The notes under the pieces are model-generated. The model did no database searches and was not told where the DNA came from. It worked only from the letters and a program-made list of their open reading frames with translations. A DNA stretch of 64,000 nucleotides, taken from the NCBI RefSeq assembly GCF_011492945.1, contig NZ_CP045120.1:1-64000 (forward strand), written 5' to 3'. Positions 2,518 through 19,840 of this stretch are shown one piece after another. Positions within the stretch are counted from its first letter, which is position 1, and each line of letters begins with the position of its first letter. The stretch comes from Rubrobacter tropicus (GTDB lineage Bacteria; Actinomycetota; Rubrobacteria; Rubrobacterales; Rubrobacteraceae). Made by a program: the position numbers and the translations under genes.

Positions 2518-3624
2518 ATGCGTAGACCGCCGGACAATCCGTTGAATCCACCGTCGCGCCGCGCGGCGCCATGCCTGCTGGCGCTCCTCGTGGCGTTAAT
2601 GACCGTGCTGTGGGCGCCCGCGGCGCTCGCGGACGAACCCGCCCCCGGCATGGACCCCGACACGTTCAACGGCGGCATGGACGGCGGGGACGAGCCGAAA
2701 GAGGAAACCTCCATGCAGGGAACCTCCGAAGAGGAGGACTCGGAGGGCGGCCTCGTCTCGGGAATAGCAGAGGACGTCTTTAACACCATCACGAATAACA
2801 TCGTCGAGAAGACGGCCGACGCGGCGGCCGGCTGGGCGGAGGACTTTCTCACGGACGGGGCTTTCAGCCTTCCCGCGCCCGAGGGCGAGATAAAGACCTT
2901 CTACGACCAGGTCAGCGGCGTTGTCCAGCCCGGCGCGATCGCGCTCTTGCTCCTCACGGGGCTGATGCTCACGCTGCGGGGGGCCAACTACAACACCTCC
3001 TACGCCACCCAGAACGCGCTGCCGAAGATCGTCTTCTTCTTCGCTGCGCTGGCCTTCTTCCCCGAGGTCATGGGAATGATAAGCGACGTGACAAGGAACC
3101 TGGCCGACGCCCTCGTCGACCCCTCCCAGCTCTCCGACGCCTACGTCCGCCTCGTCGAGGCGCAGGTGAAGAACGGCGGCTTGTTGGGCGGCTTGATCGT
3201 GCTGATCGCCGCGGTGATGCTGCTCTTCCTGTTCGCCATCTCGATCTTCAAGAGCTTCCTCTTCGGCGTCCTCTTCATAGCCGGTCCGCTCGCCATGTTC
3301 GTCTACCCCATCCCGACGCTCTCGGGGCTCACCGCCCAGTGGTTCAAAGGCACCGTCGCCTGCAGCGCCATACCGCTCTTGTGGGCCATCGAGGCCTCGA
3401 TAGGGAGCGCCCTCATAAGCGCCCCCGAGATGATGTTCGGCGAAGGGTACTCCAACAACTTTATCGTGCCCGTGCTCGTGCTCGTGCTCAGCTGGGTGAT
3501 GATAAAGACGCCCTTCAAGGTCTTCGAGTGGTGCTTCTACGGCTACTCCGCGGGAAGCGGTCTCGTAAGCCACGTCGCCAGGGCCGGCGCCACGAGGTTT
3601 GCCACCGGCGCCTTCGGCAGATAG
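2518..3624 (+). CDS. Polytopic VirB6/TrbL-like conjugation channel protein
   Basis: A 368-residue protein with an export signal (hydrophobic stretch ending ALADEP near residue 40), an acidic region to ~130, and then at least five membrane helices. This arrangement, with a signal or soluble N-terminus and a helical bundle at the C-terminal half, is typical of the VirB6/TrbL inner-membrane channel component. The gene follows its neighbour by 3 bases. A stem-loop 50 bases past its stop closes the unit. Family assignment is from topology and context. Confidence 0.65.
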   Translation: MRRPPDNPLNPPSRRAAPCLLALLVALMTVLWAPAALADEPAPGMDPDTFNGGMDGGDEPKEETSMQGTSEEEDSEGGLVSGIAEDVFNTITNNIVEKTADAAAGWAEDFLTDGAFSLPAPEGEIKTFYDQVSGVVQPGAIALLLLTGLMLTLRGANYNTSYATQNALPKIVFFFAALAFFPEVMGMISDVTRNLADALVDPSQLSDAYVRLVEAQVKNGGLLGGLIVLIAAVMLLFLFAISIFKSFLFGVLFIAGPLAMFVYPIPTLSGLTAQWFKGTVACSAIPLLWAIEASIGSALISAPEMMFGEGYSNNFIVPVLVLVLSWVMIKTPFKVFEWCFYGYSAGSGLVSHVARAGATRFATGAFGR

Positions 3625-4152: not shown

Positions 4153-5280
4153 TTGAACGGCCCGACCACAAGCGAAACAGGGCGGCGCGGGCACACCAGG
4201 GAGTCCCTGCTTCCGTACCAGCCCCCCGCCGAGCTCACCACAAGGGCGCTGGCCGCCGGCGTGGACCTCGCCGGCGCCGGCGTCCCCGTAGTGTTGCTCT
4301 TCCCGGCCGACCCGGCAGAAGCGAGAACCGGCCTGCTCGCCCTGGCCTTCGGGGTTGCGCTGGCCTGCTACCACGCCTCCCTGGAGGCGCTCTTCGGAGC
4401 CACGGTCGGCAAGCTCGTCTTCGGGTTGCGGGTGGTGGACGCCCGCACCGGCGCGAAGCCGTCCGCGATCGCGGCGCTGCGGCGCAACCTTCCTCGCGCG
4501 GTGGACGTCGCCCTCGCCTACCTGCCGGGGGCGCTCTCGGCGTGGATCTCCCCGAGCAACAGGTCCGTGGGCGACCGCCTGGCCGGCACCGTCGTCGTCG
4601 CTGCTCGGGCCGGCACCGCGCCTTTCGGCTTCCCCGGGCTCCGGGACCACAGGCGGCGCGCCGAAGAGGAGGCCCGCCGGCGTCGGGAGCACGCCGGGCT
4701 CATGGGCGAGGAGATGGTCGCGGGCGAGTTGGAGCGGCTCGCGCGGCTGGACGGCGACTACTACGTGTGGAACGACCTGGACGGCGGCAGGGGGGTCGGG
4801 AACATTGACCACCTGGTGGTCGGCCCGGGCGGTATCACCATCATCGAGACCAAGGCGAACCGCGGTCTCGTGAGCGTCGGGGGCTTCGGCGTCCCCACCG
4901 TGGACGGGCGGCCCCTGCACCGGGACGTGCTGGAGCAGGTGGACCGCCAGCGGCGGGCGGTCCTGCGGAGGATGGGTCTCGGGGACGTGGACCCCGAGAA
5001 GATCGTGGGCTACGAGTGGCTTATCTGCTTTCCCCGGGGGAGGCTCGACCCGCAGATGAACCCCGCCGTCAGGCGCCGCCTAGCCACCACGCGGGACCTC
5101 AGATGGCGCCTTCGCAACCAGACCCCCACGGCCACGCCCGCCCAACTGCGGGACATGGTGGGCGCCGTCTCGAGGATGTACGGGCGCGGCCCGGACCTCT
5201 CGCCGCCCGGACGGTCCCCCGACGAAGACCCGGGCGTGCAGGCCGGTCCGGAGGGGCGCCCTCGCGGCCGTTGGGCCTGA
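4153..5280 (+). CDS. RDD membrane domain fused to NERD nuclease-like domain
   Basis: A 375-residue protein from a TTG start. Residues ~25-155 form an RDD-type membrane domain with three helices; it contains the family hallmarks GKLVFGLRVVD and RSVGDRLAGT. Residues ~185-305 form a NERD domain, with GEEMVAGEL, the acidic NIDHLVV strand and the ETK triad that matches a PD-(D/E)XK nuclease core. The C-terminus is a proline-rich tail. NERD proteins are thought to act on DNA; tethering one to the membrane next to transfer and replication genes suggests DNA handling at the envelope. The ribosome site is weak, so the exact start is uncertain. Confidence 0.8.
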   Translation: MNGPTTSETGRRGHTRESLLPYQPPAELTTRALAAGVDLAGAGVPVVLLFPADPAEARTGLLALAFGVALACYHASLEALFGATVGKLVFGLRVVDARTGAKPSAIAALRRNLPRAVDVALAYLPGALSAWISPSNRSVGDRLAGTVVVAARAGTAPFGFPGLRDHRRRAEEEARRRREHAGLMGEEMVAGELERLARLDGDYYVWNDLDGGRGVGNIDHLVVGPGGITIIETKANRGLVSVGGFGVPTVDGRPLHRDVLEQVDRQRRAVLRRMGLGDVDPEKIVGYEWLICFPRGRLDPQMNPAVRRRLATTRDLRWRLRNQTPTATPAQLRDMVGAVSRMYGRGPDLSPPGRSPDEDPGVQAGPEGRPRGRWA

Positions 5281-5330
5281 GGGGTGGTGGAGAGGCTGAC
5301 CGCAAGGGTTCGATTCGGGGGGAGGCCAGC

Positions 5331-7658
5331 ATGACCACGGAAAGAGGCGGCGCCGGCCGGCGCCCGCACCGCGACAACCGCTACGACACCGACCTCATAA
5401 ACGGCGAGGCGCTGGCCGTGTGCGACCACTACCTGAGCGATCGCCGGCGCGAGGGGCGCAGGTACGTCTACGTCTGCCCGGACTGCGGAAAGGCGGACTT
5501 CGAGGTGGAGCCGGTCAAGGGGCTGGCGGGGTGCTTCAATCCGGGGTGCCCGATGCCCAGGACGACCAACGCGCTGGGCATCGTATCCCACATGGAGGGT
5601 CTCGAGCCCCAAGGCGTGGACTTTGTCCGCTGCCTGGAGAAGGCCTACGAGATCCTCGGCCTGACAATGACGCCGCCGTCGGCCCGGCCGGCGGACGCCG
5701 GTCGGCCAGAGAACGGGACGCGAAGCTGGGAGAGGGAGGACGGCGCCGCGGTGGCCGCGCCCGAACCAAACGGGTCTTACGATGTACAGGTTCCCCGAGA
5801 GGACGACCCGGGCGGAGAAACTTTTGTAGAGGATCTTCACCCGCCGCGGGGGAGGCGGTGGGTCCGTCAGAACGGGGAGGGCGAAGACCACGAAGGGGCG
5901 CCGGTTAGGCCCGCCCCGCGGGGCGAGCGGGTCTACCCGATAGAGGCCTACTTCGAGGGGCCGGACGGCGAGCAGATCCCGACGGAGGCGGTTATCGTCG
6001 ACGAGGGCCCGGAGATCGCGGAGCTCCCGGCGGCCGTCGTAAGCCCCGGGGGGCCCGCCGCCGAGTACCCGCCGGAAGAGGCCGAGCTTGCCGACGAGCG
6101 GGAGCTCAGGCACGCCGTCTACGAGAGGCTGCTCGCGCTCTGCCCGCTCGAGGAGCGCGACGCGGATTTCTTCGAGGGGCGCGGCCTCGATCGCCGGACG
6201 ATCGACGAGGGGGGGTTCGGCTCCATCTCCTGCCGGAGATCCCGTTGGGTCGCCGAGAGGCTGCGAGAGCTCTTCGGCGACGAGGACCTGCTCACGGTTC
6301 CCGGTTTCTACCGACCGGAGCGTGCGCCTGACCGGATCCGCTTCTCCCTCTACGGTGACTACGCCCTGATCCCCTACCACGACGCCGAAGGGTTCATCAC
6401 CACCGTGGAGGGCCGCCTGATCGGGGAGCCCAAGAACAGCCGGGACAAGAAGTACAAGGCGCTCCTGGGCAGCGGCGTCCACCTCTACGTCCACCCGCGC
6501 TTCGGGCCCGGCGAGGTGGTCGCCTTCTGCGAGGGCGCGATCGGAGCGATGGTGGCGGCGCGCTACGGCGTTCCCATGGCCGCCATCAAGGGGTTCCGCA
6601 ACTACAAGGTCTCAGCCCGAGAGCCCGGCGCCGACCGCGTCCTGCCGGAGCTCGAAGGGGTGGATTTCGCCGGCCGCGAGGTGGTCTACATCCCCGACGT
6701 GGACGTCAAACCGCAGTCGCGGGCGGAGGTGATGGAGGCGGTGCCCGCGGCCTGCGAGTGGCTCGTGAGGCGTCAGGGCGGCGTCCCAAAGGTCGCCCTG
6801 CTCCCCATGGGGGCCAAGGACCTCGACGAGTGGCTGCTGTCGCTGCCCGAGTCGGAGAGAACGGCGCAGGCCGGCGAGCTGCTCGCGGACGCGGTGGACC
6901 TCGGCGCGTGGATCAGCTCCCTCGAAGGTTTCCCCGAAGAGGACCACCCGGTAGAAGACGTCAAGCCGGCGGCCGACACAGCCCCCGAGGCGCGCGCGGC
7001 GGGCACCGCCCGCACCACCCCGCCCGCGGGGGGCAAGCGGGACCTGCTCGGCGACGACGACGCAACGCCGGCCGCCGGCCTCTTCGTCGATCGCCCCAGC
7101 GCATCCGAAATGGAACCGCAGGGGAACGACGGCGCGGACACCCGGGAGCTCAGGTGGGACGGCGGCCGGGTCGGGCCCGGCCGCGCGGAGCGCCCCAACG
7201 GCTCTCACGGCGGTGCTGCTCCCGCCACCCACGACCCGGAGAGGGCGCGGAAGGGGCCGATGCACCCGGCGATGGCGCGGTGGTACGATGTCGCGCGCTA
7301 TACCCCCGAGCAGGTCGCGGACGCCCGCCAGCAGACGGCGATCCGGAAGGTGGCGGGCAACCGCAGGCCGACCGTGAGAGACACCCCCGTGACGCTGCCG
7401 CGGTGGACGCCCGGGGAGGTCCTCCTCGCGTTGGCGGTGGCGCTCGCGACGGCGGTCGGACTCTGCCTCCTGGCCTACGCCATGCGTGCCGGCGGCGGCG
7501 CCCTCGGCGTCGCGGGCGCCCTCATCACGTGGCCGTTCTGGTGGCTGGAGGCGGCGCTCTACGCCTGGGCCGGCGCCCTCGCGGCCCTTTGGGTGGTCGG
7601 CCGGCGGCACCGCGCCAGGGACCGCCAGCTGCGCGCCCACCTCCAGCGCGAAGAGTGA
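5331..7658 (+). CDS. DnaG/TOPRIM primase-like replication protein with C-terminal membrane helices
   Basis: About 775 residues from an ATG behind GGGGGGAGG; the frame is open further upstream but overlaps the NERD gene. A CHC2-like zinc finger lies near residues 49-73 (CPDCGK and CFNPGC). After an acidic linker, a primase-like core leads to a TOPRIM fold at ~390-515, with the metal-binding Glu in FCEGAIGA and the acidic strand YIPDVDV. Near the C-terminus (about residues 700-755) two hydrophobic helices are followed by a basic tail. The combination suggests a plasmid primase anchored to the membrane. I see no helicase Walker motif. The Replic_Relax gene follows 83 bases later. Confidence 0.78.
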   Translation: MTTERGGAGRRPHRDNRYDTDLINGEALAVCDHYLSDRRREGRRYVYVCPDCGKADFEVEPVKGLAGCFNPGCPMPRTTNALGIVSHMEGLEPQGVDFVRCLEKAYEILGLTMTPPSARPADAGRPENGTRSWEREDGAAVAAPEPNGSYDVQVPREDDPGGETFVEDLHPPRGRRWVRQNGEGEDHEGAPVRPAPRGERVYPIEAYFEGPDGEQIPTEAVIVDEGPEIAELPAAVVSPGGPAAEYPPEEAELADERELRHAVYERLLALCPLEERDADFFEGRGLDRRTIDEGGFGSISCRRSRWVAERLRELFGDEDLLTVPGFYRPERAPDRIRFSLYGDYALIPYHDAEGFITTVEGRLIGEPKNSRDKKYKALLGSGVHLYVHPRFGPGEVVAFCEGAIGAMVAARYGVPMAAIKGFRNYKVSAREPGADRVLPELEGVDFAGREVVYIPDVDVKPQSRAEVMEAVPAACEWLVRRQGGVPKVALLPMGAKDLDEWLLSLPESERTAQAGELLADAVDLGAWISSLEGFPEEDHPVEDVKPAADTAPEARAAGTARTTPPAGGKRDLLGDDDATPAAGLFVDRPSASEMEPQGNDGADTRELRWDGGRVGPGRAERPNGSHGGAAPATHDPERARKGPMHPAMARWYDVARYTPEQVADARQQTAIRKVAGNRRPTVRDTPVTLPRWTPGEVLLALAVALATAVGLCLLAYAMRAGGGALGVAGALITWPFWWLEAALYAWAGALAALWVVGRRHRARDRQLRAHLQREE

Positions 7659-7741: not shown

Positions 7742-8536
7742 GTGGCGAAGAAGTCGAGCGGCAGGGGCCAGATCACGCCCCGCGACGAGCGCATATTCAG
7801 GGACCTCTACCACACCCGCATCCTGACCACCCGGCAGATCGCAGCGATGCACTTCCCCTCCTACGAGACGGGGCGCCGGAGGCTCTACGACCTCAAGTGG
7901 TCGGGCAAGATCGAAAACCACGTCTTTCGGGCCTCCACCGAGGACTCCCTCGACGAGGACGTGAACGTGTGGATGCTCACCTCCAAGGGCTTCCGGTACG
8001 TGCTCGAAGACCTCGAAAAAGAGAAGCCCGAGAGGTACCCCGACTGGCCCTCCAGGAGGAACGTCCGCCACTACCTCGACGCCAACGAGGTCTACGTCAT
8101 GGCCTCCGGCGCCCTCGACGCCGTGCTCGGGAGCTACCCGGCCTGGGAGTGGAGGGACGAGCGGGGCGCCTCCCGCCGGTGGAACATGGGCGGCAGGGAG
8201 CGCACGCACCGCCCCGACGCCGAGGTCCGTTTCGGGGACACCGTCTACTTCATCGAGCGCGAGACCGCGCGGTCCAGAAAGTCGCCGAACCACTTCGTGA
8301 ACAGGATGGAAGACTACGCCGGCTACATCCGCTACGCCAGGGCGAACGGCGCCGCGGAGAGCTTCAAGGTGATGTGGGCCTGCGACACCGAGAGGGACGA
8401 GAACCACGCCGCCGACGCCGGCGAGAGGTTCGCGGTCCCGACCTACGCCGGCACCCCGAGAGAGGTCTCCCAACGCCTCAAACAGCACGCCCAGGAGAGC
8501 GTTCAGCTCGCGGTCGCATCCGGCGCACGGGGGTAG
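7742..8536 (+). CDS. Replication-relaxation family protein (Replic_Relax-like)
   Basis: About 264 residues from a GTG start behind GAGAAAGGGAG. The N-terminal ~90 residues form a winged helix (TTRQIAAMHFPSYETGRRRL is the recognition region). They are followed by an alpha/beta domain carrying HRPDAEVRFGDTVYFIE and later HFVNRMEDYAGYIR. This order matches the Replic_Relax family found on actinobacterial and Firmicutes plasmids and ICEs, several of which are needed for plasmid replication or relaxation. It follows the primase-like gene and precedes the strand-biased G-rich region, which supports a replication or mobilisation role. Confidence 0.75.
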   Translation: MAKKSSGRGQITPRDERIFRDLYHTRILTTRQIAAMHFPSYETGRRRLYDLKWSGKIENHVFRASTEDSLDEDVNVWMLTSKGFRYVLEDLEKEKPERYPDWPSRRNVRHYLDANEVYVMASGALDAVLGSYPAWEWRDERGASRRWNMGGRERTHRPDAEVRFGDTVYFIERETARSRKSPNHFVNRMEDYAGYIRYARANGAAESFKVMWACDTERDENHAADAGERFAVPTYAGTPREVSQRLKQHAQESVQLAVASGARG

Positions 8537-8753
8537 TCGTGGGCGCCGGCGAGTGCCCTGGGGACCGCCCCACAACCCCTACCCTAACCGCCCCACAGAA
8601 GACCCACTGCCGGCCGAACCGCAAAAACGGCGTGTGCGCGGTCCGGCCGGCATCGGGACGTTGCGGAGGCAAGGATCGAAAGCCCCATAGACAAAGGCTT
8701 GTCGCGGTGGGCCGGGACGTAACAAGCCACGAGGAGCGGAGCGCCCGCGTGGG

Positions 8754-9233
8754 GGGGTTAGGTTTTCGCAAATGTTCCATATGCGGATTTTTGTTGGGTG
8801 TTGCCCCTGGATCTGGCCTTGAGAGGGGCCCTTTGGGTTACGGAGATGGTGCAGCTCTGGGTGGGGGAGAGGGGATGGGTTTGGGGAAGGCGAGGTTGTG
8901 GTGGGGAAGGGTGATCTGGGGGTGGGTTCGATGTTGCGGGTGGGGTGGAGGACTGAGGGTTTTCTGGTGGAGGGAGAGCACCGGGAGTAGGTTGTGCGAG
9001 GTGTCGCAAGGAGATGGTTTGTGGAGAAGGGTATGGGAATACGGAAGGTCTAATCGGGGTGAGTTGGATGGTGGGAGGAGGATGGTGTGAAGACGAGTAG
9101 AGAAGGTTTTGGAGGGAAGATGGGTGGTCGGGCGGTGTTGGTTTGTAGGAATAAAAGTGTAGAGAGAAAAGTGTTGACAACCACGCAGCTAGACAAGGGA
9201 CGAATTGGTAGGGAAGATGGGGGGAGGTCGAGG
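8754..9233 (+). other. Non-coding G-rich, C-poor region (strong strand asymmetry)
   Basis: By hand count, bases 8821-9180 contain about 49 percent G and 7 percent C on this strand, with dozens of GG/GGG runs and several AT-rich patches (near 8770 and 9150). Genes on either side have balanced G and C. Neither strand shows a convincing protein: the long minus-strand frame is just Pro/Ser/Thr repeats from the bias. The region follows the replication-relaxation gene and runs up to the start at 9234. An origin, a transfer locus, or an R-loop/G-quadruplex region is possible. The stretch 8537-8753 before it is also non-coding and C-rich over its first third. Confidence 0.7.
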
Positions 9234-9803
9234 ATGAGGAAGACGGATAGCCCCGGACTCCGATACCCGGGGAGGGAGAAGCCGCCGGACTTGCGAGACG
9301 CCGAACCCCACTCGTACGTGTTCGAGGAGGTCACCCCCGAACGCATGCGCCGGGTGGACCTCCTCGCGGAGGGAGGGTCCGACTCGACCGGCGCGGCGCT
9401 GCCGGACAACAGAGGGCGCGTCTACCGCTACCTCTGTTCCGAGTGCTCGAAGGTCACCGCGGTGCTGGCCCGCCACGCCGGGCACGTGCGCTACGTCGTC
9501 GACTGCGCCCATCCCGGCTGCGCCGGCGAGGCCGTCCAGGAGGACGGGCCGACCGCGCGCGCGGAGGGGCACGCCGCCTCTGGTGGCGAGATCCACGCGG
9601 CCTTCTTCCGCCCCCTGGCGCCCGACGAGGTCGCCGCCTGGGCGGAGGGCGTGGAGGCGGAGGCGCGCCTGTTGGTGGAGGAGCTGGGGGCGGGGGATCC
9701 CGACGACGCGGAGGACCCGACCGGGCTGGCCTTCCGGGACGCGGAGGCCACGCGCCTCATCAACGGCCACCTCCTCATCGAGTACGGTCGGGCGGGCGGC
9801 TGA
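9234..9803 (+). CDS. Putative zinc-ribbon protein, unknown function
   Basis: About 189 residues from an ATG behind GGGGGAGG. The frame is open back to 9087, but that extension lies in the G-rich non-coding region. Cys pairs in YLCSECSKV and CAHPGC, about 28 residues apart, look like a four-Cys zinc ribbon. The C-terminal half is acidic and helical. I do not recognise a family. It lies between replication genes and small orphan genes. Confidence 0.65.
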   Translation: MRKTDSPGLRYPGREKPPDLRDAEPHSYVFEEVTPERMRRVDLLAEGGSDSTGAALPDNRGRVYRYLCSECSKVTAVLARHAGHVRYVVDCAHPGCAGEAVQEDGPTARAEGHAASGGEIHAAFFRPLAPDEVAAWAEGVEAEARLLVEELGAGDPDDAEDPTGLAFRDAEATRLINGHLLIEYGRAGG

Positions 9804-11675: not shown

Positions 11676-12515
11676 ATGACGAACCAGATGGAGGTCAAGA
11701 CCGAGGTCAAGGAGCAGGTGGAGCAGATCATCGCCGGGAAGATCCTCGTGAAGCTCGCGAAGCTCGGCGCCGCCGAGGAGCGCGCGCTCAAGCAGTCCGT
11801 CGCCGCGGTGCAGGTCCGCCATGGGGACCCCGGGCACGGCTTTGCCCAGGTCCACACGACCACGAAGAGCATCCCCGGACCGGTCGTCGCCACGGTCCTC
11901 GCGAAGCTCGGCAAGCTCGGCCTCGTCCGCAAGATCTCCGTCGCCGGCGAGACCTTCATAGCGCGCCGCGACGCCAGCCGCGAGGAGATCCTCGCCGCCG
12001 TGAAGCTCTCCGTCGGCGAGGCCCGCTACTCCGCCTACGCGGCAACGTCGCCCGGACGCCGCCAGCGCTTCCAGGACGGCGAGACCGGCTTCGTTATGGC
12101 GCAGGCGATGCCCCTCGCCGACCCCGAGGACGAGGTCCACTACTCCGAGCGCGAGGGAGCTATGACCTACGAGGGCTCGGTCGCCGACGCCCCCTTCGGG
12201 GCGGAAATCCCGTCCGATTCCGAGGCCGCCGCCACCCCGGTGAACGTCCGCCGCCGGCTCGTCGTGACGGACGAGGTCCGGGAGAAGATACGCTACCAGG
12301 ACCGGATCGGCCAGGGCGCGCGCAACACCCGCCGCGCCCGCGCCCGCTACCTCAAGACCGACCCCGCGATGCAGCAGTGGCTCGCCCGCAAGGAGATGGA
12401 GGAGAACGCCCGGCGCGAGGAGCGCCGGGCGTTCCGGGCGGACGATCCCGCCTTCAACGCGAACGCCCCGGCGATGTGGCCCGAGCAGGCCTACGAAGAC
12501 CACCGCGACGCCTAG
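11676..12515 (+). CDS. Putative DNA-binding protein, unknown function
   Basis: About 279 residues from an ATG behind GAAGGGAG; the frame is open to 11628 but without a ribosome site. The first ~100 residues look like a helical domain plus a winged helix (VVATVLAKLGKLGLVRKISV followed by a beta wing). The middle is less ordered. The C-terminal ~80 residues are rich in Arg and Glu and probably helical. No family is recognised. Its position directly after the structured region makes it a candidate initiator or regulator acting on that region. A strong terminator follows 20 bases after the stop. Confidence 0.6.
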   Translation: MTNQMEVKTEVKEQVEQIIAGKILVKLAKLGAAEERALKQSVAAVQVRHGDPGHGFAQVHTTTKSIPGPVVATVLAKLGKLGLVRKISVAGETFIARRDASREEILAAVKLSVGEARYSAYAATSPGRRQRFQDGETGFVMAQAMPLADPEDEVHYSEREGAMTYEGSVADAPFGAEIPSDSEAAATPVNVRRRLVVTDEVREKIRYQDRIGQGARNTRRARARYLKTDPAMQQWLARKEMEENARREERRAFRADDPAFNANAPAMWPEQAYEDHRDA

Positions 12516-12534
12516 AGAATCGGAGCTTCCGCGA

Positions 12535-12578
12535 GGAGCCTCGCCAGTCTCCCGGGCTGGCGAGGCTCCCTTTTTTTT
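12535..12578 (+). terminator. Intrinsic terminator
   Basis: A 13-bp stem (GGAGCCTCGCCAG with CTGGCGAGGCTCC), a 9-base loop and then eight T residues give a textbook Rho-independent terminator for the gene ending at 12515. Confidence 0.9.
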
Positions 12579-12668
12579 GTGCTCGCCGCCCGTCCGCGGG
12601 GGTCCGTGGCGGTGCGGCAGGTCCCGGATCACGTCGCCCGGCGCGCGGGCCTTGCCCGGACCGACCTT

Positions 12669-12692
12669 GGTCACACACCCTTCGGGTGTGCC
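12669..12692 (-). repeat. 24-bp palindromic repeat, intergenic copy
   Basis: Read on the minus strand, this 24-mer (GGCACACCCGAAGGG followed by TGTGTGACC) recurs with one mismatch each at 16450-16473 and 16516-16539, both inside a coding region. The core CACACCC..GGGTGTG is self-complementary. The rest of 12579-12778 shows no gene. Confidence 0.7.
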
Positions 12693-12813: not shown

Positions 12814-12872
12814 TCTCGCTCTCCCGCTCTCACAGGAGCGGTCTAGGAACACGAACCACGGAGGAGGAGACG

Positions 12873-13307
12873 GTGCTGGAGGCTCGGGTAGATCTCTGGA
12901 AGGCGGAGGCGGACCTCAGGGTGGTGACCACGAACGGTTTCGTGAAGCGTAACGGTGAGGCGGTCATGGGCGCAGGCTGCGCTAGGGAGCTCCGGGACGC
13001 CGTCCCCTCGGCCCCCCGGAAGCTCGGCGCCCTGATCCGGCGCCACGGTAACCGCCCGGTGCGGTTCCTGGCCGTCAACGGCGCCCACGTCGCCTCGCTG
13101 CCGGTGAAGGTCCACTGGAAGCTCGCCGCGGACCTCGACCTCATAGAGGCTTCCGTCCGCTCCCTGGTCCTCATGGCCGACAAGTTCGGCTACACGAACG
13201 TGGTGCTCCCTCGTCCCGGCTGCGGGAACGGACGCCTGAAGTGGGCGGAGGTGCAGGAGAGGATCGAGCCCCTCCTCGACGACCGCTTCACGGTCGTCAC
13301 GAAGTGA
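12873..13307 (+). CDS. Macro-domain-like ADP-ribose-binding protein
   Basis: About 144 residues from a GTG behind GGAGGAGGAGA; the longer open frame upstream runs through the stem-loop element. The order of motifs fits a small phage-type macro domain: VTTNGFVKRNGEAVMGAGCAREL near the N-terminus (broken across the binding loop), the central RFLAVNG strand and the late VVLPRPGCGNGRLKW loop. Macro domains bind or hydrolyse ADP-ribose or its derivatives; phages and plasmids use them against ADP-ribose-based defence or in NAD metabolism. The function here is inference. Confidence 0.7.
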   Translation: MLEARVDLWKAEADLRVVTTNGFVKRNGEAVMGAGCARELRDAVPSAPRKLGALIRRHGNRPVRFLAVNGAHVASLPVKVHWKLAADLDLIEASVRSLVLMADKFGYTNVVLPRPGCGNGRLKWAEVQERIEPLLDDRFTVVTK

Positions 13308-16270: not shown

Positions 16271-16707
16271 CGGCCCACGCCCACACGCGCCCCGAGCACT
16301 TCTCGGAGACCCGCTGGCCCGCCCGGACCAACGTGGTCGCGCACGACCCGCGGCGAAGCCACTGGCAGGACGTCTCCGTCAGGCCCGAGAACCGCGCGGA
16401 CGGCCTCACCGTGGCGATCTACACCCACGCCCTCCTCCGCGAGGACTTCGACACACCCGAAGGGTGTGTGACCGGCGTCGGGCCCGACCCAGACACCCTC
16501 CCGGATCCGGAAGCCGGCACACCCGAATGGTGTGTGACCCTCGACGTCCCGAACCTCGCCGTCTACCTCGCCCGCCCCTTCGGCCCCGCCGAGGCCCTCT
16601 TCTACACGGAGGCCCTCATGGTCGAAGCGGGCCTGCCCGCCGCCTCCCTGGAAGAGGTCGGCGGCGAACGCTTCTATCCCTTCCTCCCTGCGGTGGGGCG
16701 CGGGTGA
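16267..16707 (+). CDS. Hypothetical protein carrying two copies of a palindromic repeat
   Basis: About 146 residues from a GTG behind GGAAGGAGG. The N- and C-terminal parts look like one alpha/beta domain. The middle is interrupted by two copies of a 24-bp palindromic DNA repeat (16450-16473 and 16516-16539), both read in the same frame as TPEGCVT and TPEWCVT. A third copy is intergenic at 12669. The GTGA overlap with recQ shows coupling. Function unknown. Confidence 0.6.
   Translation: MTAHAHTRPEHFSETRWPARTNVVAHDPRRSHWQDVSVRPENRADGLTVAIYTHALLREDFDTPEGCVTGVGPDPDTLPDPEAGTPEWCVTLDVPNLAVYLARPFGPAEALFYTEALMVEAGLPAASLEEVGGERFYPFLPAVGRG
16450..16473 (+). repeat. 24-bp palindromic repeat inside a coding region, copy A
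   Basis: Matches the minus-strand sequence at 12669-12692 at 23 of 24 positions. It encodes the in-frame peptide DTPEGCVT. Confidence 0.7.
16516..16539 (+). repeat. 24-bp palindromic repeat inside a coding region, copy B
   Basis: Matches the intergenic copy at 23 of 24 positions; the mismatch changes the Gly codon to Trp (GTPEWCVT). It starts 66 bases after copy A, a multiple of three, so both copies keep the frame. Confidence 0.7.
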
Positions 16708-18575
16708 GTGCTCCGGCGAGCGGGTCGGCGGACGCTTCGAACGGCGGCGCGGGAGATCTCCCGCGCCGCCTGCTGCTTAGGGTCTTCGGCCACGAGGACT
16801 TCAGGCCCGGCCAGGAGGACATCATAGCCGCCGCCGTGGCCGGCAGGGACGTCTTGGCCGTCATGCCCACGAGCGGCGGCAAGTCGCTGTGCTACCAGGT
16901 GCCCGCCCTGATGGGCGAGGGCCTTACCGTGGTGGTCTCGCCGCTCGTCTCCCTGATAAAGGACCAGATCGACGCGCTGCGCGCCCGCGTCGAGGCCTCC
17001 GACGAGGGGGTCCCGGCCGGGGCCGTGGCCGCCCTGCACTCGAGCCTCTCCGTCTCCGAGCGCCGCGCCGTCGAGCGGCGCGTCCTCTCCGGGGAGGCGA
17101 AGATCCTCTACCTCGCGCCCGAGAGGTTGCGCTCGCTGGAGATCGTCTTGCTCCTCCGACGCGCCGGTGGCGGGGCCGGGGTCTCGCTCGTCGTCGTGGA
17201 CGAGGCGCACTGCACCTCCGAGTGGGGGCATTCCTTCAGGCCGGAGTACCTGTTCCTGAGGACGGCCATACGGGACCTCGGCTCGCGCGGGAGCCGGCCC
17301 CCGATCATGGCGCTGACGGCCACGGCGGACCCCAGGGTCCGCGGGGACATCGTGGAGCTCCTGGGGCTCAGGGAGCCGGAGGTCATCAGGACCGGCTTCG
17401 ACCGCCCCAACCTGCGCTACCGCGTGCGGTGGGTGGCCGAGGACGGCCGCCTCCACACGGTCGTCCGGGCGCTCAACGAAGGCGAGGCGCCGGCGATCGT
17501 CTACGCCCACACGAGGAGCCGGTGCGAGGAGCTCGCCTCCGCGCTCTCCTCGCGCGGCATCCGGGCCGAGGCCTACCACGCCGGGATGGGCCCCGCCGAG
17601 CGCGACGCGGTCCAGGGCCGCTTCATGGACGACGAGCTGCCCGTCATAGTCGCCACCGTGGCCTTCGGCATGGGCGTGGACAAGCCGAACGTGAGGACCG
17701 TCGTACACGCGAAGGTTCCGGACTCCATCCCCGCCTACGTCCAGGAGGCCGGCCGCGCGGGGAGGGACGGGCGCCCCGCCTTCTCCACCGTGCTGTTCTC
17801 CCCGGAGGAGCTCGAACACCGCAAGGACCTCGCCCGCACGAACCTCACCGCCCCGGAGGACGCGAAGGCTTTCTTGGACGCCCTCAAAAAGATCGGCGTC
17901 CCGGAGAAGGCCGGGCCGAACGCCGGCAAGCTCCGCGCCAACCCGAACCCCCAGGACCTCTCGCGCCTGGGCGACGTCGGCGGCGGGGCCGCGGCGGACG
18001 TGCTGCGCGCGCTGGAGGCGATGGGCCGGGTCAGGCGCGGCTACAACCTGTGGGCCGAGATCCGGATAAAGCGGCTTCCCCCCGACGCCTCCTCGGCCGC
18101 GCCGCCAGACGACGGGAGCGCTGGCGCCGGGGTCCTGCGCGCGCTCGCGCGACGGGGGACCGGTTCCCGCGTGCCGTTGGTGGACCTCGCCCGGGAGGTC
18201 GGGGCCTCGCCGGCCGCCGTCCAGGCCTCGCTCACGCGGCTCATCCGCTCCGGAAGGATCGAGGCCGCGCCGAAGGGCCGGATCGCGGACCTGCTCGTCA
18301 AGCCCGCGCCCCTCGGCCGCCGCGAGCTCGCGGACCTCGGGGCCCGTTTCGAGCACCGCTCGGAACAGGAGGCCCGGCACCTGGAGGAGGTCGCCGCCTA
18401 CGCCTCCCTCACGACCTGCCGGCGCGCGAGGCTGCTCTCCCACTTCGGAGACGAGGCCGCCGAGCTTGTCGCCCCCTGCGACGGCTGCGACGTCTGCCGG
18501 AAGCGATCGGTCCCGTCGCTGCTCAGGCGGTTCTTCGGCGGCCTGGCGGACGCCTTCGCCCCGGCCGGGACCTGA
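16704..18575 (+). CDS. recQ: ATP-dependent DNA helicase RecQ
   Basis: About 623 residues from a GTG that overlaps the upstream stop. All RecQ helicase motifs are present: MPTSGGKSLCYQVPA (motif I), VVDEAHCTSEWGHSFRPEY (II and the RecQ loop), ALTATA (III) and QEAGRAGRDG (VI). The zinc-binding region keeps one Cys in TCRRARLLSHFGDE and three in APCDGCDVC. A winged-helix segment lies between the motor and that region, inserted ahead of the Cys cluster rather than after it. No HRDC domain is visible. Size is close to E. coli RecQ. RecQ unwinds DNA 3'-5'; on a conjugative element it may help replication or processing of transferred DNA. Confidence 0.93.
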   Translation: MSAPASGSADASNGGAGDLPRRLLLRVFGHEDFRPGQEDIIAAAVAGRDVLAVMPTSGGKSLCYQVPALMGEGLTVVVSPLVSLIKDQIDALRARVEASDEGVPAGAVAALHSSLSVSERRAVERRVLSGEAKILYLAPERLRSLEIVLLLRRAGGGAGVSLVVVDEAHCTSEWGHSFRPEYLFLRTAIRDLGSRGSRPPIMALTATADPRVRGDIVELLGLREPEVIRTGFDRPNLRYRVRWVAEDGRLHTVVRALNEGEAPAIVYAHTRSRCEELASALSSRGIRAEAYHAGMGPAERDAVQGRFMDDELPVIVATVAFGMGVDKPNVRTVVHAKVPDSIPAYVQEAGRAGRDGRPAFSTVLFSPEELEHRKDLARTNLTAPEDAKAFLDALKKIGVPEKAGPNAGKLRANPNPQDLSRLGDVGGGAAADVLRALEAMGRVRRGYNLWAEIRIKRLPPDASSAAPPDDGSAGAGVLRALARRGTGSRVPLVDLAREVGASPAAVQASLTRLIRSGRIEAAPKGRIADLLVKPAPLGRRELADLGARFEHRSEQEARHLEEVAAYASLTTCRRARLLSHFGDEAAELVAPCDGCDVCRKRSVPSLLRRFFGGLADAFAPAGT

Positions 18576-19360: not shown

Positions 19361-19840
19361 GTGGTTTCGTACAATCGCGTAGTTCTCGCCGGCAACATCA
19401 CGAGAGATCCGGAGCTCCGGTTCACCCAGGCGGGCATCCCCGTCTGCAACTTCGGGCTCGCCCAGAACAAGGTCCGCGGCGACAAGGAGCACACCAACTT
19501 CTTCGACGTCTCCGCGTGGCGGGAGCTCGGCGAGACCGTCGCCAACTACAAGAAGAAGGGCGACCCCATCCTCCTCGAGGGCCGTCTGGAGTACCGTACC
19601 TGGGAAGACCCGGAGACCGGCAAGACCCGCTCGAAGCACGAGGTCGTCGCGGACAACATTCAGTTCCTCGGCGGCGGCAAGAACGGCTCCGGCGGTGGCT
19701 CCGGCGGTGGCTCCGGCGAGCAGGGCACCAAGCGCGGCAGCGGCGGGCGCCAGGAGGCGGATAGCGCCCCCGAAGATCTGGAAGACATCCCCTTTCGCGC
19801 GGTCAACGCCAAGCGCCTGAACGTCGAGGGCATCCTCTAG
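19361..19840 (+). CDS. ssb: Single-stranded DNA-binding protein
   Basis: A 159-residue SSB from a GTG behind AAAGGAG. The OB fold covers residues ~1-105 (NRVVLAGNITRDPELRFT, then FFDVSAWRELGETVANYKKKG and WEDPETGKTRSKHEVVADNI). A Gly/Ser-rich linker follows. The partner-binding tip, normally DDDIPF at the very end, is here EDLEDIPF followed by 14 more residues (RAVNAKRLNVEGIL). SSB coats single strands during replication and transfer. The displaced tip is unusual and could change partner binding. Confidence 0.93.
   Translation: MVSYNRVVLAGNITRDPELRFTQAGIPVCNFGLAQNKVRGDKEHTNFFDVSAWRELGETVANYKKKGDPILLEGRLEYRTWEDPETGKTRSKHEVVADNIQFLGGGKNGSGGGSGGGSGEQGTKRGSGGRQEADSAPEDLEDIPFRAVNAKRLNVEGIL

Follow-up and report, generated by a model that had tools for sequence, protein, structure and literature searches.

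A strand-biased G-rich, C-poor tract beside a MOB_C-type relaxase candidate in Rubrobacter tropicus and related plasmids

We found that a stretch of about 500 bp in a 205,328-bp contig of Rubrobacter tropicus (contig C2, G000:C2) is strongly enriched in G and depleted of C on the plus strand, and that it lies just past a gene for a candidate MOB_C-type relaxase. On balance, we take this tract to belong to a MOB_C-type conjugation or mobilisation module, in which it would form the far side of the origin of transfer (oriT) and open the leading region, a reading based on the relaxase neighbour and on the recurrence of the bias at the same place in related plasmids. Among the roles suggested in an earlier note on the letters of this DNA, a transfer leading region fits these two observations best. 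The window referred to below is the whole stretch of DNA analysed, namely the first 64 kb of the contig, and its relevant features are as follows.

2518 to 3624, plus strand: conjugation membrane protein resembling TrbL/VirB6, with a weak Pfam match and a homologue in R. marinus
5016 to 7658, plus strand: gene for a primase-like protein (DUF3854), lying upstream of the relaxase gene
7742 to 8536, plus strand: Replic_Relax (PF13814) protein, MOB_C-type relaxase candidate, with a predicted winged helix and PD-(D/E)XK nuclease domain (Pfam, alignment, model)
8564 to 8574 and 8587 to 8597, plus strand: direct repeats ACCGCCCCACA, 23 bp apart, candidate relaxase binding site (relatives have similar repeats in this position)
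8603 to 8657: imperfect inverted repeat, arms of 27 nt, 78% complementary
8683 to 8694, plus strand: CCCCATAGACAA, candidate nic-region motif (mismatches: one in R. marinus, two in G012, three in G011)
8696 to 8728, plus strand: 7-bp perfect inverted repeat GGCTTGT/ACAAGCC with a loop of 19, directly after the motif (8.75% of random places match it)
8749 to 9250, plus strand: G-rich, C-poor tract found by skew scan (composition kept in relatives, sequence not)
9234 to 9803, plus strand: first gene past the tract, 189 aa, no assigned function (relative on the R. marinus plasmid)
19361 to 19840, plus strand: ssb, single-strand binding protein gene, on the far side of the tract

Composition and folding of the tract

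The computed base content of positions 8821 to 9180 was 20.8% A, 7.2% C, 49.2% G and 22.8% T, giving a skew of 0.744 and reproducing the earlier hand count of about 49% G and 7% C with a skew of about 0.74; over 8754 to 9233 the skew was 0.657. The maximum-scoring segment ran from 8749 to 9250, with no second one on either strand of the window. The bias had been described as unlike anything else in the window, and indeed the 300-bp skew peaked at 0.79 at the tract but did not exceed 0.29 in size elsewhere in the window; it reached at most 0.40 in the rest of the contig (z = 8.0 for the tract) and 0.45 in an 812-kb sample of the chromosome. The description of the stretch as non-coding, for which a conserved protein was the proposed counter-evidence, also stood: codon periodicity was looked for and was absent, the only ORF (140 aa, minus strand) had no Pfam match, and an Rfam search of the whole window gave no match. 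The lack of periodicity and of a Pfam match disfavours a protein hidden in the tract.

When treated as single-stranded DNA with DNA parameters, the two strands of the tract gave -0.054 and -0.037 kcal/nt, compared with -0.248 +/- 0.035 for 60 random segments, and weak folding in the same direction was found in 5/5 tracts, those of the relatives described below being included. In a folding scan of the contig comprising 514 windows, with the tract window counted twice, the tract was the least folded (-0.047), followed by a runner-up at -0.141. The tract is the least self-pairing and most skewed stretch of the 205-kb contig. Because the coding strand is nearly without C and its partner nearly without G, neither separated strand should fold back; the unfoldedness follows from composition, which does not by itself make it the selected trait, although we infer that it may be. 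The G-quadruplexes that the plus strand had been thought able to form are not favoured, since GGG counts were below the dinucleotide-shuffled expectation in 5/5 tracts and G-runs are not enriched beyond composition, although these plasmids are poor in G-runs overall, random windows of them averaging z -0.72.

The same composition bears on three other explanations of the bias. R-loop opening, in which G-rich RNA of the relaxase operon would stay paired to the C-rich template and so expose the coding strand, unpaired, to nicking or priming, could also account for it: the orientation is right in all five tracts and the hybrid-minus-duplex energy favours the gene-strand transcript over the antisense one in 5/5. 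R-loop propensity, though, ranked within the top 0.5-1.7% when four of the tracts were set against random segments and within the top 11% for the fifth, which is far less extreme than the unfoldedness, and G-runs are not enriched; the R-loops of the earlier note are therefore upheld as to a high propensity but not as to an extreme one, and we consider this explanation improbable. Rho-based insulation could explain the bias as well, a loading site on the minus strand blocking antisense or convergent transcription into oriT and the relaxase gene. As the earlier note had remarked, the minus-strand RNA is C-rich and G-poor, and it is weakly folded; moreover, the next gene is convergent in R. radiotolerans. 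Nothing specific to Rho emerged beyond this, since the YC density is as composition predicts and no comparable tract occurs in the 812 kb of chromosome, and no convergent gene lies directly downstream in the window or in the R. marinus plasmid, making a Rho site distinctly improbable.

A mutational footprint, by which C would be lost through deamination from a strand that is often single here, agrees with the identity of the base lost and with a location plausibly next to a nick. With C set aside, however, the G/T/A shares of the window tract were 0.51/0.26/0.23 versus 0.54/0.23/0.23 in the background, and the A share was low in three other tracts. Replacement of C by G, T and A in nearly background proportion, and not by T alone, argues against a simple C-to-T change and led us to reject deamination as the sole cause; as the limits of the 500-bp tract in the window are also sharp, we regard a footprint as highly improbable.

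The neighbouring relaxase candidate and the DNA between it and the tract

The flanking gene, which the earlier note had called a replication-relaxation gene in placing the tract next to replication genes, is by family and model a candidate MOB_C-type relaxase gene rather than a replication gene. The window protein matched PF13814 with an E value of 3.6e-16 (60.2 bits, against a cut-off of 25.3), whereas among its relatives L096 and L095 exceeded this cut-off, L094 and L027 fell short of it, and L035 gave no match. P158-D159 and E172 are invariant in 6/6 aligned plasmid-type proteins, with R/K at 179 according to the alignment, and P-D-A followed by E-R-x-T is common to the six. An AlphaFold model (pLDDT 84.1, pTM 0.81) divides the window protein into two halves. 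One is a winged helix whose nearest matches are MarR-type regulators (Z at most 10.8 over 80 residues, rmsd 3.5), the VIA-align rows spanning residues 9-97 almost only, so that the nuclease half is not covered by them. The second half matched Cdn1 (E 3.6e-4), FokI and the nicking enzyme Nt.BspD6I in Foldseek, which we take to be PD-(D/E)XK enzymes; as the TM-scores normalised to the query were at most 0.36, the fold match supports the domain type only. The relaxase families PF03432, PF08751, PF03389 and PF02486 had no match in the genome of the window.

These features resemble those of MOB_C modules such as pAD1 TraX and CloDF13 MobC. In the accessible text of PMC5357655, PF13814 is listed as Rel_PF13814/MobC and is recognised by CONJscan, placing the window protein in the same Pfam family as the MobC-type relaxases; its PD-(D/E)XK-type motif and predicted fold agree with the relationship between MOB_C relaxases and PD-(D/E)XK restriction enzymes stated in the available part of a review (PMC12857230). 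The same part reports that pAD1 TraX binds five direct repeats located 70-120 bp from nic. Here, too, direct repeats lie close to the relaxase gene, beginning 28 bp past its stop in the window and recurring in the relatives. Their spacing is mostly 11-12 bp or about double: G012 has three copies (24 and 12 apart), G005 copies 11 and 60 apart, G011 copies 39, 11 and 11 apart, and R. marinus a 17-bp perfect inverted repeat together with direct repeats 22 apart. In the window, a weak candidate motif for the nic region starts 86-119 bp past the repeats. The motif, CCSCATARACAA, follows the repeats in three plasmids, has more mismatches in G011 and is absent from G005; its 11-base core is present as a single copy in the replicon of the window. 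An equal score was obtained in 3/25 shuffled sets, and the motif is therefore a lead only. One base past it, in both the window and R. marinus, is the 7-bp stem, although 6.5-9% of random places are as good. What sets these loci apart from the MOB_C modules described in that part of the review is the long strand-biased tract beside the repeats; for CloDF13, no skew island was found in the record scanned, in which mobC is unannotated.

Vegetative replication is better placed elsewhere on the contig. A replication initiator (181.9-183.3 kb) and ParA (178.4-179.0 kb), homologues of R. marinus and R. radiotolerans proteins, lie together on the window contig, and repeat arrays spaced about 22 bp apart adjoin the repA/trfA initiator in all four replicons searched. 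Repeats of this spacing occur upstream of the RepA-like initiator at G000:C2:183451-183880 (L008:19451-19880), outside the window, and this array is probably the true replication origin of the contig. The repeats near the tract resemble an iteron-type oriV of RepA/TrfA plasmids in lying beside a gene for a DNA-binding protein, but differ from it in their mostly 11-12-bp spacing and in having no initiator near. Because the initiator, ParA and 22-bp iterons are about 32-42 kb from the tract, we rejected the tract as oriV, contrary to the origin proposed in the earlier note. The cumulative GC skew gave no consistent answer as an origin marker, the tract lying close to its minimum in two contigs, close to its maximum in another and at neither extreme in two more. 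A vegetative origin or single-strand initiation site at the tract would agree with the two minima and with the primase and SSB genes close by; nevertheless, the iteron arrays accompany RepA/TrfA and ParA at that distance in the replicons examined, and the tract persists where primase and ssb are absent, so that we give this alternative very little credence.

Recurrence among relatives and the conjugation module

Eleven matches to the relaxase were found in 8/39 genomes of the class. Six are plasmid-type (the window, the R. marinus plasmid, G012:C3, G005:C322, G011:C7 and G017:C33), putatively so for G005, whose contig covers 15 kb of a metagenome-assembled genome; the five chromosomal-type proteins form their own clade. 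A G-rich, C-poor tract past the relaxase on its coding strand was present in 5/6 plasmid-type and 0/5 chromosomal-type loci, with lengths of 250-500 bp. Five full contigs were scanned, four of them independent, and in each the tract was the top-skew 300-bp window, at 0.79, 0.52, 0.50, 0.50 and 0.76, the weaker ones being those of R. marinus (0.52) and R. radiotolerans/G012 (0.50), and it started 236-1068 bp past the relaxase stop; G011 has an extra short gene-like stretch in between. R. radiotolerans plasmid 1 was not counted separately, being the same stretch as G012:C3. This relaxase and tract stretch lies at about 100 kb in NZ_CP007515.1 and about 127 kb in G012:C3, in plasmids of 191 and 236 kb, which suggests shared descent. 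A first contig scan for relatives returned none and a second, with alignment, returned three; when plasmids were searched by tblastn with a further actinobacterial Replic_Relax protein, 3 records matched.

The tracts are kept in composition, not in sequence: compared with 41 genomes, the window tract had a match in its own genome only, and tract-to-tract matches were 11-18 bp only. Absence of the bias from related elements had been named as evidence against a function; it is present in five of the six plasmid-type loci but missing from one, the 42.5-kb metagenome-assembled contig G017 (L095), which has an R. marinus-type relaxase and direct repeats and is the clearest result against a strict relaxase-tract rule. 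Among other PF13814 loci of the phylum (matches with a given locus and enough downstream DNA, L057 with 105 bases downstream being dropped), 24/25 were without a tract and one, the low-GC L053, reached 0.45. The same hosts have two other contigs with PF03432 (MOBP-type) relaxases (G012:C1:1353-1697 and G011:C23:31727-31921), and neither contig has a tract, the top windows being -0.36 and 0.35; we accordingly rejected a host-wide feature of relaxase loci. The five chromosomal-type Replic_Relax proteins in Rubrobacteraceae (L015, L017, L018, L021 and L022) have a KPDAH motif and no tract, and are possibly a resident or domesticated family.

The replicon of the window also carries a VirB4 homologue (C2 194274-198443) and a coupling-protein homologue (C2 192008-193426), the combination by which a conjugative plasmid is recognised. 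Genes for the coupling protein, VirB4, TrbL-like protein, RDD protein, primase, relaxase and SSB are shared with R. marinus and G011 (partly with G005), and the tract sits between relaxase and ssb in this shared set. In the R. radiotolerans plasmid, the relaxase and tract are kept while queries for the type IV secretion system (T4SS), primase and ssb gave no match, as expected of a mobilisable plasmid. Within the conjugation cluster of the window, 4153-5277 encodes an RDD membrane domain fused to a NERD nuclease-related domain, and on the far side of the tract are genes for a Macro-domain protein (12840-13304) and a RecQ-type helicase (16686-18572). In R. marinus, G005 and G011, a DUF4417 gene, possibly a leading-region gene, lies near the tract (loci L034:10516-11226, L026 near 12070-12678 and G011:C7 54261-54938); in the window contig its position is 136 kb.

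According to the accessible part of PMC11541004, ssb is a common component of the leading regions of known plasmids, whose early genes use folded single-strand promoters, Frpo being a folded hairpin with promoter elements. The tract is like the Frpo/ssi leading regions of F-like plasmids in being noncoding DNA beside a (here candidate) oriT with ssb on the same side, but is unlike Frpo in being unfolded and without a promoter-like site. A single-strand promoter of the Frpo/ssi type was rejected on the lack of a stable hairpin (fold z 0.05), the zero promoter-like sites at 8500-9400 and the position of the region as the least folded.

Possible mechanism and significance

If the tract does belong to an oriT, the winged helix of the relaxase may bind the short repeats and its nuclease domain may nick near the conserved CATARACAA-like motif, so that the coding strand, which runs into the tract, would exit first, toward ssb. 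With strands that do not fold, the opened region would stay available for unwinding, for loading of SSB/helicase or the coupling protein, and for passage through the T4SS, a mechanism that we advance tentatively, as possible rather than probable. A wider proposal, which we hold to be doubtful, is that MOB_C oriTs carry a composition-coded, non-folding launch strip, a few hundred bases whose sole conserved property is one strand without C, from which DNA would reach the coupling protein with no relaxase covalently attached.

PF13814-family relaxases and oriT repeats were already known, and the new part is the strand-biased tract of non-conserved sequence beside them; among titles and abstracts, subscription papers being largely outside reach, we found no long strand-biased tract without sequence conservation beside an oriT. 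The accessible text of PMC12857230 states that no covalent protein-DNA intermediate was observed for pAD1 TraX, which leaves the transfer of DNA from MOB_C relaxases to the secretion system to be explained, and a single-strand feature next to the relaxase that is conserved independently of sequence would be a concrete, testable element in this step. The tract may also provide a way to spot transfer origins missed by typing tools, for example in the R. marinus and R. radiotolerans plasmids, both of which PLSDB types as "non-mobilizable".
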